A stretch of DNA of 64,000 nt, taken from NCBI GenBank assembly GCA_017501225.1, contig JAFVXH010000009.1, positions 1 to 64,000 of the forward strand, written 5' to 3'. Shown piece by piece: positions 24,321 to 29,207 of this stretch. How positions within the stretch are numbered: the first letter of the stretch is position 1; each line of letters opens with the position of its first letter. This stretch comes from Clostridia bacterium (lineage in GTDB: Bacteria; Bacillota; Clostridia; Oscillospirales; CAG-272). The notes below the pieces were generated by a model. The model was not told the DNA's origin. It was given only the letters and a program-made list of their open reading frames with translations, and did no database searches. The translations under genes were made by a program, and so were the position numbers.

Positions 24321-26384
24321 TCAGCCGGTATAACCCCAAACGACGGGACGGTTGAGAGCATTCCAGTTGTTGTTCCATCCACTCGGCTGGGATGCGGCTT
24401 CACAGTAGATGGTGGTCAGGCTCGAACAAGGATAGAACGCATAGCCTCCAATGCTTGTGACGCTGTCGGGAATGACGATGCTCGTAAGGCTGCTGCAATT
24501 ATAGAACGCCTTCTCACCGATGCTCGTTACGCCATCCGGGATCGCGATATCCGTCAGTCCGCAACCGTGGAATGCATAGTCACCGATGCTCGTCACGCTG
24601 TTGCCGATGGTGATATTGGTCAATTTCGAGCAATTGTAGAACGTATAAAGGTCGATACTCGTCACGCTGTTGCCAATGGTGACATTGGTCAATTTCGAGC
24701 AATTATAGAACGCATAACCGCCGATGCTTGTCACACTATCCGGAATGATGATGCTCGTCAGATTTGAGCAATCCTTGAACGCTCGGGATCCGATGCTCGT
24801 GACGCTGCCCGGGATAACGATGCTTGCAAGGTTCTCACAACCCTCAAACGCAGAAGTATAAATGAATTTGGTGTTTTCGTGAATGTTGCAGGAGGTAATA
24901 GAGGTCGAGGAGGCTTCCACGAAAATCACGTAAGGATTCTTTTCGTTACCAAGATATAAGCCGTTATCGTACGTGTTGTATTGCAGGCTCGAGCAGCCGT
25001 TGAACGCATTGTTTCCGATGCTTGTGACGCTGTCGGGGATAACGATGCTTGTAAGGTCAAAGCAATTGTAGAACGCATAATGACCAATGCCGGTCACACT
25101 GTTCGGGATCGTGATGCTAACAAGATTTGTGCAAAACTCGAACGCTGCATTTCCGATGCTCGTCACGCTATCGGGGATGACGATGCTCTTAAGACTCTTA
25201 CAATAGTAGAACGCAGCATTTCCGATGCCGGTAATCCCATCGGGGATGATAATATCGGTTGCCAATACGTCGTTGATATACAGATCTGCACCGTTGCTAA
25301 GCGGGTTAGCACTGGTTTCTGCAAAAGAAATTCTGCACCATGCTTCCAAATCGGTAATAAACACCTTTTTCAGACTGGTGCAACCGGAGAACGCAGCGTC
25401 ACCGATGTTTGTTATACTGTTGGGTATCACGATACTTGCAAGACTTGTGCAACCAAAGAACGCATAGACTCCAATATCGGTCATACCATTCGGGATGACG
25501 ATACTTGTAAGACTCGAGCAACCGTCGAACGCTCGGCTGCCGATGCTCGTCACAGGCAGTCCCTTGTATGTGGAGGGAATAACGATATCGGTGTCCTGAC
25601 ACTCACCGATGCCGGTGACGGAGTAGCTTTGCTGATCTTCATTCGGGGTGTATTCCAGTGCAGGAATTTTGGCAATTGCTTGCGTTTCCTTCTCACCGCA
25701 GGCACAGCGTCTTTCCATCAAGCCTTCCTCGGTCGTGGAGGGTTCTTTGACCGTGATCCATTCGCCAAAGAGATGTGCGTGCGTCGGAACACCGCTCCAA
25801 TTCAGATCGTTCCAAGATACGACAGGACCGCTCGCGGTGCCGTTGGGATCAAACGTCAGATTGCCGCTTCCTTTTTTGATCTCACGCACTGCGCCATAAT
25901 GCGTATCGCCGCCCTCGGTTGTGACGAATGCTTTGACAAACAGCGTAAACTCCGTGGGGATATCCGTAACGTTGAACAGCGCGAAATACTTTGAGGTCGG
26001 AGCGCCCGCCATGTCGGGGGTGTAGGTTTCTCCCGCGCCGAGGATGGAGCTGTAAACCTCGTTCAGGGGGATTCTTGCACGCTGATCTCCAAGAGTCAAA
26101 ACGAACCCTACCTCGTCGTACTCCAATCCGTCCACAGTGGTGACAAGACGAATCGCGCTCTTGTCCTCATTGAACTGATAGGTCACCTTGAGCATGTCAC
26201 GGTCAAACGCTGGATCGGGGATTTCTTCCTCCTCCAAGGGCTCCGCTACGGGCGATAACGGTGCGGAAAGGACGTCATTCTGTGCGTCCGTCACGTCTGC
26301 CGTTGCGGACACGCAGGGGACGAGCGCTCCCACCGTCATCGCAAGGCAGAGCAGGACCGCTACGATTTTTGATGCTGTCTTCAT
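24321..26384 (-). CDS. Secreted BspA-type leucine-rich-repeat surface protein
   Basis: A 687-aa exported protein. A signal peptide (residues 1-27) is followed by a Thr/Ala-rich stretch, a beta-rich region, a motif HLFGEWITVKEP...RRCACGEKET typical of Clostridia surface proteins, and about 16 LRR_5 repeats of 23 residues (about 270-665) with the pattern LTSIVIPDSVTSIGxxAFxxC. Such proteins bind host or bacterial surfaces in gut and oral species. No LPXTG motif, S-layer domain or C-terminal anchor is visible. The start at 26384 follows AAAAGGAG. It is expressed behind the structured leader at 26385-26645. Confidence 0.9.
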   Translation of the reverse strand: MKTASKIVAVLLCLAMTVGALVPCVSATADVTDAQNDVLSAPLSPVAEPLEEEEIPDPAFDRDMLKVTYQFNEDKSAIRLVTTVDGLEYDEVGFVLTLGDQRARIPLNEVYSSILGAGETYTPDMAGAPTSKYFALFNVTDIPTEFTLFVKAFVTTEGGDTHYGAVREIKKGSGNLTFDPNGTASGPVVSWNDLNWSGVPTHAHLFGEWITVKEPSTTEEGLMERRCACGEKETQAIAKIPALEYTPNEDQQSYSVTGIGECQDTDIVIPSTYKGLPVTSIGSRAFDGCSSLTSIVIPNGMTDIGVYAFFGCTSLASIVIPNSITNIGDAAFSGCTSLKKVFITDLEAWCRISFAETSANPLSNGADLYINDVLATDIIIPDGITGIGNAAFYYCKSLKSIVIPDSVTSIGNAAFEFCTNLVSITIPNSVTGIGHYAFYNCFDLTSIVIPDSVTSIGNNAFNGCSSLQYNTYDNGLYLGNEKNPYVIFVEASSTSITSCNIHENTKFIYTSAFEGCENLASIVIPGSVTSIGSRAFKDCSNLTSIIIPDSVTSIGGYAFYNCSKLTNVTIGNSVTSIDLYTFYNCSKLTNITIGNSVTSIGDYAFHGCGLTDIAIPDGVTSIGEKAFYNCSSLTSIVIPDSVTSIGGYAFYPCSSLTTIYCEAASQPSGWNNNWNALNRPVVWGYTG
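24589..24712 (-). repeat. Near-identical tandem LRR coding units
   Basis: Positions 24589-24643 and 24658-24712 match at 52 of 55 bases with a 69-bp period, encoding two copies of LTN(V/I)TIGNSVTSI. Other repeats in the gene are more diverged, so this pair is a recent duplication or conversion. Confidence 0.8.
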
Positions 26385-26406
26385 TGCTTTTCTCCTTTTG
26401 TATGTC

Positions 26407-26494
26407 TTTGCGTTTTTCTTCGGTGAAAATAAAAAAGTGCGCCAACCGAAGTCAGCGCACCGAAAAACGCAAACTCCAATTGTCGCCAAACAAA
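26407..26494 (-). repeat. Conserved 88-nt leader block, copy 1
   Basis: Matches 27784-27871 at 87 of 88 bases. It spans the terminator hairpin and the switching segments of the leader. Confidence 0.9.
26426..26460 (-). terminator. Attenuator terminator in leader 1
   Basis: Minus strand stem GTGCGCTGAC / GTTGGCGCAC with a TTCG tetraloop (26460-26437), followed by TTTTTTATTTT. It lies about 45 nt before the LRR start codon, so it must be bypassed for expression. Confidence 0.8.
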
Positions 26495-26650
26495 AACAAC
26501 GATATGGGTATAACTCCCCACGGCAGTTGCGGAATTTGCGTTTTTGCTAAATTCAACATCTGCCGTAAAATAGAAATGGACAAAAAGCCCCCTATAAAAA
26601 AACAGAGAGTTCACCCATGATATCGTTATTTGTTTTTGTTTGGCTCTTTC

Positions 26651-26679
26651 ATTCTATCATACTTTTTTTCGTTTGTAAA
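26651..26679 (-). promoter_or_regulatory. Promoter of leader 1 / LRR gene
   Basis: Minus strand: TTTACA (26679-26674), 17-bp spacer ending TGA (extended -10), TAGAAT (26656-26651). The 43 bp at 26637-26679 recur at 28011-28053 with one mismatch. Confidence 0.75.
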
Positions 26680-26720
26680 TACAAAATAGAAAAAATTGTA
26701 TTCTGAATTCAAAATCAAAA

Positions 26721-26755
26721 AACGGGAAGCCGATCTCTCGGCTTCCCGTTTTGGA
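26721..26755. terminator. Terminator of the SGNH-hydrolase gene
   Basis: Thirteen-bp stem (26721-26733 with 26738-26750) with A/T runs on both flanks; on the minus strand it ends the gene finishing at 26780. A near copy of the stem is found at 28096-28121. Confidence 0.85.
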
Positions 26756-26779
26756 TAGGTTTAGGGGATCTTCGTTTGA

Positions 26780-27757
26780 TCAAAACAGCATTGCTGCGAT
26801 GTGCCTTGCGAGCAGCTCACGCCCTGCGGGATTGAGGTGTGTGCCGTCGGTTGCCGGGAAATACGTTGCTTTGTTGTATTTGTTGATCCCAAGCGCGTAA
26901 TAGTTATCGATAAAGGTCAGCTGATACTCCGTTGCGACCTCACCGCTCTTTGCCACAAAATCCGTAAGCTTTTTTCCATCGGCACGGGTACGGGTATTGC
27001 TGCCTTCCACAAAATTCCCGTCGGCGTCCATCCAGAAGCGATAGGTGGGAGAGCATACGAAAATGCGGACGTTGGGGAACGCCTCAAGGATCGTTTCGAT
27101 GCTGTATCGCAACGCTCCTGCGAATTTGGTGGTATCGTAAGGATCACTCTCATTTTCCAATGCGATACCGCCCGTAAAATCGTTTGTGCCGTATGCGATA
27201 GTAATGATATCAACCTTGGAAAAATCAATGGATTTCAACGTTGCAAGCGTTGCTTCAAAGTAGGCGGGGAGCTTGCCTTGCCCCTCCGTTGCGGCTACCT
27301 TTCCTGCCTCGATGGCTTGCTCTTGCACCAAGAAATTTCCGGACGCGATCGCATCGGCAAGCCGGTACATTCCGAATGCATCAAAATTGGCGATGGAGTG
27401 CTTTGCCATACGGCAGCCGCCAAACGCGCAGTTGTAAACCGTCCCGCCCGTGTATTCTGCCAAGAAGGACGATACGCTGTCCTCTCCGCGATAATTCCCA
27501 AAAATACTGTCGCCAAGGTTGACGATGACCTTGCCCTTAAGCGGAATGATTCCGTCTTTGCCGTCTTTTCCATCGGTTCCGTCGACGCCGTCTTTACCGT
27601 CGATGCCGTCTTTACCGTTGGCGCCGGGCTCACCCTGCGCGCCTTGGATTCCCTGAGGTCCTTGAGGTCCGGTTTCTCCGGGCTCGCATGCGACGAGCGC
27701 GCCCGCCATCATGGCAAGACAGAGCAAAAGTGTGATGATTTTTGAGAATTGCTTCAT
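26780..27757 (-). CDS. SGNH/GDSL-hydrolase lipoprotein with collagen-like repeats
   Basis: A 325-aa predicted lipoprotein: signal peptide with lipobox-like GALVAC (Cys 24), then uninterrupted G-x-y collagen-like triplets (about residues 29-70, GPQGPQG and GKDGIDG types), then an SGNH hydrolase domain. The hydrolase blocks are NLGDSIFGN (about 80, nucleophile Ser), YGTNDF (about 191) and DGTHLNP (about 303, catalytic Asp and His). It probably removes acyl or acetyl groups from an extracellular polymer. The collagen stalk would hold the enzyme away from the membrane. The start follows AAGGAG; the gene lies behind leader 2. Confidence 0.9.
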   Translation of the reverse strand: MKQFSKIITLLLCLAMMAGALVACEPGETGPQGPQGIQGAQGEPGANGKDGIDGKDGVDGTDGKDGKDGIIPLKGKVIVNLGDSIFGNYRGEDSVSSFLAEYTGGTVYNCAFGGCRMAKHSIANFDAFGMYRLADAIASGNFLVQEQAIEAGKVAATEGQGKLPAYFEATLATLKSIDFSKVDIITIAYGTNDFTGGIALENESDPYDTTKFAGALRYSIETILEAFPNVRIFVCSPTYRFWMDADGNFVEGSNTRTRADGKKLTDFVAKSGEVATEYQLTFIDNYYALGINKYNKATYFPATDGTHLNPAGRELLARHIAAMLF

Positions 27758-27783
27758 TGTTTTCTTTTCTCCTTATGTTTGGC

Positions 27784-27871
27784 TTTGCGTTTTTCTTCGG
27801 TGAAAATAAAAAAGTGCGCCAACCGAAGTCAGCGCACCGAAAAACGCAAACCCCAATTGTCGCCAAACAAA
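27784..27871 (-). repeat. Conserved 88-nt leader block, copy 2
   Basis: Differs from 26407-26494 at one base. Confidence 0.9.
27803..27837 (-). terminator. Attenuator terminator in leader 2
   Basis: Same stem, TTCG loop and TTTTTTATTTT tract as in leader 1. Confidence 0.8.
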
Positions 27872-28024
27872 CTCAAGAAAAAGACAAGTATACCTTGTAC
27901 CCTAACCTGACGGAATTTACATTTTTACCAAGTTCGTATCAATTAGGGTACGACAAAAAGAGCATAGCTATCCATTGCGGATAAATATACCTGCTTTTTC
28001 TTATTAAGTTTGTTTGGCTCTTTC

Positions 28025-28053
28025 ATTCTACCATACTTTTTTTCGTTTGTAAA
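28025..28053 (-). promoter_or_regulatory. Promoter of leader 2 / SGNH gene
   Basis: Minus strand: TTTACA (28053-28048), 17-bp spacer, TAGAAT (28030-28025). Confidence 0.75.
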
Positions 28054-28095
28054 GAAAAATTAAAAAATTCTATCGCAAATTCAAAATCAAAAAAG

Positions 28096-28121
28096 CGGGA
28101 AGCCGAGAGATCGGCTTCCCG
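28096..28121. repeat. Duplicated terminator-like hairpin upstream of leader 2
   Basis: CGGGAAGCCGA and its complement around a short loop, the same stem as the terminator at 26721-26750. The A/T-rich DNA between hairpin and promoter is also alike in both places, so terminator, promoter and leader form one duplicated block. Confidence 0.75.
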
Positions 28122-28163
28122 TTTCAGGGATTCTGGGTATCTGCAGGGAGCTAAGCGTATCTC

Positions 28164-28325
28164 AGCCTTCCTCCGGGAGGAAGGGGGACCGCCGAAAGGC
28201 GGTGGAAGGAGTCTGCGTGCACGAAGGCTTTACATTTCATTGTAAAATAGGTGTTCATCCATGGTTGCGCACTCTCCTTCCGTCATTTTCTTGCGAAAAT
28301 GCCACCTCCCTCTCGGAGGGAGGCT
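28164..28325. repeat. MITE/REP-like palindromic intergenic element
   Basis: About 162 bp with imperfect terminal inverted repeats (AGCCTTCCTCCGGGAGGAAGG at the left and the complement of AGCCTCCCTCCGAGAGGGAGG at the right) and internal hairpins (ACCGCCGAAAGGCGGT; CATTTTCTTGCGAAAATG). It contains no ORF of note. Similar CCTCCCTC-ended elements are, from general knowledge, common in gut Clostridia. Confidence 0.55.
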
Positions 28326-28348
28326 ATATGGATTATCAAGCAGAGATA

Positions 28349-28381: not shown

Positions 28382-29161
28382 TTAAAACATCTTATATTTC
28401 AATCGGAGATTATCCGCGATCATCGCGATGAACTCGGAATTGGTGGGCTTTCCTCTGTTGTTTTGGATGGTATAACCGAAATAGGCGTTGAGCGTATCCA
28501 CGTCACCTCTGTCCCATGCGACCTCGATCGCATGACGGATCGCACGCTCGACACGGCTGGTCGTGGTGGAATACTTCTTTGCGACGGAGGGGTAGAGAAC
28601 CTTTGTGACCGAATTGATGATGTCGCTGTCCTTGATCGTGAGCAGGATCGCGGTGCGCAGATACTGATAGCCCTTGATGTGCGCGGGTACACCGATCTGA
28701 TGAATGATCTGCGTAACCTGCGTTTCAATGTCAGGGGCTTGCTCGGTCTGCATCGCGCTGACCGCCTGAGTCTGGCCTCTCTTGGTGACAATGCTCTGGA
28801 TATGCTCGCACAGGCTGTTCATGTTGACGGGCTTGAGCAGGCAAAGATCCGCTCCCGCCTCGGTTGCCTGAATGAAGATGTTCTGATTGGATACCGACGA
28901 CACGATGATAAAGGCGGGTTGCGTGTCGTGTCCCCAATCCAAGCTCGCGCAGCTGCGCAGAACACCGATTCCGTCCAGCTTGGAAAGCCAGATGTCCATC
29001 AGCACCACGTCGGGATGCATCCGCGTGATCTTGAGCAGCGTTTCCTCGCCGTTGACCGCCTCCTCTAAGTTTCGGTATCCTGCACGCAAAAGACCTTCTC
29101 TCATCGCGGCGCGGTTTGCGGGGCTCTCATCGGCAATCAGAATTTTGGTTGTGTATTCCAT
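28382..29161 (-). CDS. spo0A: Sporulation master response regulator Spo0A
   Basis: Phosphorylated Spo0A activates entry into sporulation. The 259-aa protein has a receiver domain with acidic residues in ADESP, the phospho-Asp in VLMDIWL (about 56) and Lys in LLKPVN (about 106), then the Spo0A-specific DNA-binding domain with [15 protein letters not shown] and [13 protein letters not shown], which is essentially invariant in Spo0A. The ATG at 29161 is 10 nt after GGAGG. spoIVB, the usual neighbour in Clostridia, is not adjacent here. It has its own promoter and terminator. Confidence 0.97.
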
Positions 29162-29207
29162 GGTTCCATATTCCTCCAAAAAATAATACTGTGGTTCTTA
29201 CAGGAAT

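Follow-up and report, generated by a model that had tools for sequence, protein, structure and literature searches.

A leader RNA family of Clostridia with competing pseudoknot and antiterminator strands, a candidate class of transcription attenuators

Introduction

Transcriptional riboswitches with pseudoknotted aptamers, such as the fluoride, ZTP and preQ1-I classes, place a folded 5′ domain before an intrinsic terminator and set a pseudoknot against a strand of the expression platform. T-box leaders, which are long 5′ leaders of Bacillota, form mutually exclusive antiterminators and terminators. In Clostridia, c-di-GMP riboswitch regulons comprise several copies per genome, some of them before surface proteins, and the LoaP, EAR and put RNAs are structured leader RNAs that influence termination.

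Two leaders in a 64,000-nt stretch of clostridial DNA (the window) belong to an RNA family that resembles each of these systems in part. Like the fluoride, ZTP and preQ1-I riboswitches, the family has a pseudoknot that competes with an expression-platform strand ahead of a terminator, but the Clostridia RNA is much larger, the predicted effect of its pseudoknot (about 14 pairs) is to favour the terminator, and the genes downstream are very mixed. It shares the long 5′ leader and the antiterminator/terminator exclusion of T-box leaders, but not their downstream amino-acid genes or any sign of a tRNA. Several copies per genome, some before surface proteins, recall the c-di-GMP regulons, from which it differs in architecture. 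As with the LoaP, EAR and put RNAs, a structured leader is predicted to influence termination, but here it opposes one terminator by direct base pairing, right before the gene. The RNA has no Rfam match to the riboswitch, T-box or c-di-GMP families. For the fluoride riboswitch, competition between the pseudoknot and the expression-platform strand ahead of an intrinsic terminator is described in PMC11077080.

Methods

A covariance model (R1) was built from alignment A3 (n = 26 copies), and both window leaders are members of the model seed. Pairings were also assessed with a strand-swap permutation, in which strands were exchanged among copies and duplex energies compared; this test was added because column-based counts depend on the alignment. 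All evidence is computational and based on sequence, a large part of which comes from metagenome assemblies, and copy counts are counts of sequences, not of independent events. Conservation at the 3′ end is overstated because copies were found with queries and patterns resembling that end, and copies fetched by an exact pattern for strand C (the strand just before the terminator) cannot vary in C.

Results

Two leaders in the window

Both leaders and their genes lie on the minus strand, so coordinates decrease along each leader from 5′ to 3′. Copy 1 has a −35 box TTTACA at 26674..26679 and a −10 box TAGAAT at 26651..26656, and copy 2 has the same boxes at 28048..28053 and 28025..28030, with a spacing of 17 nt in both, which bears out the common promoter of the initial annotation. 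By fold and covariance model, the leader RNA (P1-P2-P3, pseudoknot strands and antiterminator/terminator, through the start codon) spans 26381..26647 in copy 1 (start codon at 26384) and 27755..28023 in copy 2 (start codon at 27757). As seed members they score 161.6 bits (E 5.2e-30) and 185.5 bits (E 6.6e-35), and their folds have z = -8.2 and about -7.95, respectively, against dinucleotide shuffles.

The closing stem P1 is formed by strands 26607..26644 and 26485..26516 in copy 1, where the fold is joined by the family swap test, and by strands 27986..28018 and 27862..27892 in the fold of copy 2. Hairpin P3 of copy 1 (26520..26566; fold and family swap test) has a lower stem (26566-26560/26526-26520) and an apical stem P3b (GAAUUU, 26554-26549, with AAAUUC, 26537-26532). 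In copy 2, P3 (27897..27951) is still paired despite a sequence unlike that of copy 1, with its lower stem at 27951-27943/27905-27897 and an apical P3b. Strand B (AAAAACGCAAAUUCC, 26531..26545; copy 2, AAAAAUGUAAAUUCC, 27912..27926) pairs with strand C (GGAGUUUGCGUUUUU, 26463..26477; copy 2, GGGGUUUGCGUUUUU, 27840..27854) at -18.6 kcal/mol in copy 1 and -13.8 kcal/mol in copy 2. The antiterminator hairpin, in which C and the segment J before it (J+C) pair with the 5′ arm and loop of the terminator, occupies 26443..26482 (-17.3 kcal/mol) and 27820..27859 (-16.5 kcal/mol). The intrinsic terminator hairpin occupies 26437..26460 in copy 1, where a UUCG loop and then U6 were seen, and 27814..27837 in copy 2, at -14.2 kcal/mol in each. 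Past the terminator lies a site D (CACCGAAGAAAAACGCAAAG, 26406..26425), complementary to C and the terminator base; the fold and energy analysis places that of copy 2 at 27783..27802.

Most of these parts had been annotated before. The closing stem, inner stem and terminator block lie at the positions first given. Strands B (AAAAACGCAAA in copy 1, AAAAAUGUAAA in copy 2) and C (UUUGCGUUUUU) are there too, as is the identical D, and pairing survives the two C-to-U changes of the copy 2 core as G-U. The terminator block is nearly identical between the copies, as had been said, with the count corrected from 87 of 88 to 88 of 89 nt.

The copy 1 gene (24321..26384) encodes an exported protein with BspA-type leucine-rich repeats (Pfam LRR_5, E 3.3e-109), and the copy 2 gene (26780..27757) a lipoprotein-like GDSL hydrolase with a collagen-like repeat (Lipase_GDSL_2, E 2.1e-11; Collagen, E 6.7e-9). 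Directly upstream of the two leader promoters, at 26720-26752 and 28092-28124, are near-identical strong hairpins (97% complementary over 33 nt), probably the terminators of the preceding genes. A palindrome-rich repeat (CTCCCTCTCGGAGGGAGGC) at 28155-28330 has nine genome matches including itself, and a Spo0A gene (TIGR02875, E 1.1e-79) at 28382-29179 lies just upstream of both leader units.

Distribution and novelty

BLAST searches with the 3′ block returned further copies in the same genome, for which model R1 gives eight full copies; the two paralogous leaders first annotated are real, but two was too low a number. With model R1, hits came from 99 of the 295 order genomes at E <= 0.001 and, in the class, from 85 of 391 at E <= 1e-6. 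Of 398 genomes drawn across the phylum, only the window's own gave a hit, and none of the genomes sampled outside the class did. An exact pattern occurs in at least 120 stretches of named assemblies, most of them Clostridia MAGs from the ruminant gut; Pumilibacter intestinalis is also among them.

Searches of Rfam 15 with the window and 40 other loci of both subclasses (below) gave no match to the RNA, only tRNAs reaching the gathering threshold, and permissive scans gave only scores far under gathering. Literature searches found no description of the RNA family, for which an unnamed earlier listing is possible, for example in the supplementary tables of PMC8040213. The initial annotation had read the leaders as cis-acting attenuators outside known classes and proposed a covariance-model search; with further homologues, covarying stems and no match to an existing Rfam family, that reading stands. 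An RNA carried by between about a fifth and a third of the class and order genomes sampled, and absent from Rfam, would rank among the more widespread orphan riboswitch candidates. We put at even chances the fuller proposal that this is an uncatalogued, widespread riboswitch class of the class Clostridia, with two architectural subclasses and up to about a dozen copies per genome, that senses a signal and sets the expression of a large and varied regulon made up of accessory and surface genes.

An origin in phages, plasmids or defence systems was rejected: four exact patterns gave no match in viral contigs, plasmids gave none, PADLOC hits were scattered only, and the PHROG matches were repeat-rich tail and LRR families. 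One unverified faecal contig in a phage set carried a copy, and a second had a weak 46-nt match. Integron-like cassettes, an idea raised by the mixed genes, were also set aside, as nothing indicated recombination sites.

Architecture and promoter

Each copy has its own promoter, a long closing stem P1, a hairpin P3 with loop strand B, strand C just before the terminator, and the terminator. Long copies (about 200-230 nt) arrange P1, a small hairpin P2 and P3 round a three-way junction, and a short subclass (about 165 nt) is built without P2. The P3 loop strand B is about RUAAAAAYGCAAAUUCC in long copies and RUAAAAAYGCAUACUC in short ones; J+C (CNAUYGGAGUUUGCGUUUUU) lies between P1 and the terminator, which is based on GUGCG/CGCAC. 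The −35 box lies at 16-19 nt in 122 of 163 copies (28 after shuffling). In 112 of 163 copies exactly 4 nt separate the end of the −10 box from the element, which puts the most likely transcription start at about the first P1 base.

We also considered whether the pyrimidine-rich strand of P2 might join B:C in a U-A-U triple helix; the U-run occurs widely, and covariation cannot inform on such an arrangement. A leader peptide was rejected: an open frame (MATIGVCVFRCADFGW) occurs in both window copies, but it sits within the RNA block that is conserved, the copy 2 gene is in another frame, and the short subclass is spaced differently.

Covariation of the pairings

The 38 pairs of P1, B:C and the terminator in A3 were 97.1% paired, with 72 cells changed on both sides, compared with 26.7-44.9% paired when slid. 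The 14 outer pairs of P1 were 94% paired (both-side changes at 9), and 99.7% of B:C cells were paired across the 26 copies, with both-side changes at three pairs. P3b was 93% paired and has seven bases in common with B:C. In the long class, B, C and the J/terminator core vary little, so several pairs are without covariation information.

Strand swaps between copies strongly weakened P1, P3 and the pseudoknot, which argues that these pairings co-evolved. Among 138 long copies, z was -43.5 for P1, -39 for the P3 lower stem, -5.8 for P3b and -11.9 for B:C, and among 20 short copies it was -13.7 for P1, -12.3 for P3, -5.3 for P3b and -5.1 for B:C, all figures being optimistic because the copies are related. 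The short copies are the most telling for B:C because C is variable there, as in L116 (GUAUUUUU with AAAAAUAC), and B changes with it. A 16-copy independent set from the class-wide search gave B:C no advantage (z 0.3) and is uninformative on this pairing because C is nearly constant in it. Sequence and covariation thus support P1, P3, P3b and B:C as pairings of a conserved folded domain upstream of the expression platform, as in riboswitches.

The many copies per genome, their patchy distribution, the very mixed genes behind them and some tandem copies (L107, L148) would also suit mobile DNA elements of a MITE-like kind, which would have P1 as their terminal inverted repeats and bring promoters to new genes. 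Copies within one genome diverge widely, however, and their stems stay paired; pairings beyond P1 co-evolve, and the promoter and terminator are conserved outside what would be the inverted repeat. Mobile elements are therefore the least credible of the explanations weighed here.

A family-wide antiterminator

The initial annotation had taken C pairing with D as the switching pair. That does not hold in general, since D is present in copies 1 and 2 and a few relatives only, and most copies are without it. Folding leaders without site D brought out an alternative that the annotation had not contained: J+C (CNAUYGGAGUUUGCG) pairs with the terminator's own 5′ arm and loop, giving an antiterminator across the family.

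The antiterminator helix, CNAUYGGAGU with ACUUCGGUNG and UGCG with UGCG, was 98.3% paired in A3. Its variable pair is A-U in 13 copies, U-A in 7 and U-G in 4 of that alignment, and is canonical in 120 of 129 copies; a tree made from the sequence before J has 8 changes of the J base. Both-side changes in A3 fell at this one pair only, and that measure was not above shuffles, so support for the antiterminator comes from the variable pair, one-sided changes and energy tests. Strand swaps gave z -12.1, and z -3.0 in the 16 copies from the class-wide search, which were fetched after the idea was formed. When the J-C-terminator segment was folded, 138 of 163 copies had the antiterminator as the minimum-energy structure, compared with 7.1 expected with shuffled J. 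L007 (CUUUGAUUG) and L120 (CUCUGAUUG) have lost the UUCG loop and kept the antiterminator pairing. By sequence and energy, the 5′ leader thus holds a mutually exclusive antiterminator and intrinsic terminator, as in transcription attenuators.

A structured 5′ RNA before a terminator in Clostridia, with apical and P2 sequences conserved beyond pairing, could instead be a docking site for processive antitermination of the LoaP/EAR/put kind, where polymerase is modified and no strands exchange. We hold this to be very unlikely: the antiterminator competes directly with one specific terminator, which leaves polymerase modification unneeded, each unit has a single terminator right before the gene, and there was no Rfam match.

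Proposed switch

The family very probably consists of cis-acting transcription attenuators with competing strands, in which the B:C pseudoknot opposes the antiterminator. B:C and the antiterminator are mutually exclusive because both use bases of C, and B:C and P3b because both use the 3′ half of B; P3b would therefore favour the antiterminator and read-through, and B:C the terminator. RNA polymerase would start at about the first P1 base, and P1 and P3 would fold. Strand B would then either stay in the local P3b, paired with strand A, or pair with C as the pseudoknot. If C were free, J+C would pair with the terminator 5′ arm and loop as these emerged, forming the antiterminator and leaving the gene ON; the antiterminator can form earlier than the terminator because the terminator 3′ arm is made last. 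If C were held by B, the antiterminator would be blocked, the terminator would fold, and transcription would stop after about 200 nt, leaving the gene OFF. In the full 267-nt fold with site D, D outcompetes the antiterminator in copies 1 and 2 and the terminator results, so D may bias these two copies and they may behave differently.

We infer the OFF polarity of B:C, regulation in vivo and the existence of a signal, whose binding to the P1/P2/P3 domain would shift the balance. A small ligand or ion is the most likely signal (about half of our expectation), a protein or RNA partner comes next (about a third), and temperature or no regulation follows. The RNA may thus work like a transcriptional riboswitch or attenuator, with putative ligand binding. 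As strands, switch and expected polarity are defined to the base, they can be tested directly in vitro.

Downstream genes

Of 165 copies, 163 have a same-strand ORF within 400 nt and 133 have a start codon with a ribosome site, at a median of 27 nt past the modelled end by our own ORF heuristic; in about a fifth of the copies, the sequence directly downstream shows no clear ribosome site. By our own simple rules, lipobox proteins make up 34 of 95 downstream ORFs versus 9 of 167 other ORFs in similar loci, and N-terminal signal or membrane segments 55 (of 95) versus 25 (of 167). Among 128 downstream proteins, Pfam matches were BspA LRR (17), zinc ribbons (8), AMP-binding (5), AbrB-type (5), collagen (3), CHAP (3) and EcoRI-type methyltransferase (2). 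The link to envelope genes in the initial annotation is right in that exported lipoproteins and surface proteins are enriched, and too narrow in that the genes behind the leaders also encode AbrB regulators, zinc-ribbon proteins, AMP-dependent ligases and DNA methyltransferases; functions are mixed, with no single pathway among these genes. Both subclasses precede one kind of gene, the TGYPSIDKPWLKYY ligases, which lie behind the long copies L077 and L147 and the short copies L109 and L121. The downstream genes would be a first list of what the signal controls in gut Clostridia, most of which are without genetics.

The closeness of these genes also bears on whether the RNA is a free-standing small RNA, with the gene behind it a mere neighbour or expressed by leak-through. 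Promoter, compact fold and strong terminator do form a complete transcription unit, the near-identity of B and C in all long copies would permit pairing in trans between copies, and three loci of the window's own genome keep C and the terminator without B. Set against this are the near-constant ORF and frequent ribosome site just described, the recurrence of the same gene types behind the RNA across genera, and the conserved antiterminator, which would be useless to an RNA that needs only to end. A small RNA is thus improbable, and the fixed promoter and the gene directly downstream, both read from sequence, fit a cis-acting attenuator.

The three loci without B (L004, L008 and L010) have a different promoter. 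L004 (G000:C22:71483) and L008 carry operator-like palindromes beside a divergent HTH gene, and L010 precedes an ABC transporter ATPase. The L004 gene is a close paralogue of the copy 1 surface gene, with the sensor domain replaced by a promoter, a palindromic operator and the divergent HTH gene. In isolation, the antiterminator and the terminator come close to balance (-14.3/-14.2, -10.6/-12.2 and -14.1/-14.0 kcal/mol for L004, L008 and L010, respectively), and the whole 5′ UTRs fold with the terminator. Loss of B with control handed to a repressor fits these loci; decay is equally possible.

EcoRI-type adenine methyltransferase-like genes lie behind the leader in L210, L212 and L306, and a tRNA gene adjoins in L306. 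Tandem leaders about 100-150 nt apart occur in L148 (2158-2379 and 2480-2703) and L107 (775-941 and 1090-1258), the first leader of each pair having no clear gene or a tiny gene behind it. The remote variants L289 and L296 have GAGTCCCTGCGTTTTT ahead of the terminator and differ in strand B, and perhaps represent a third subclass.
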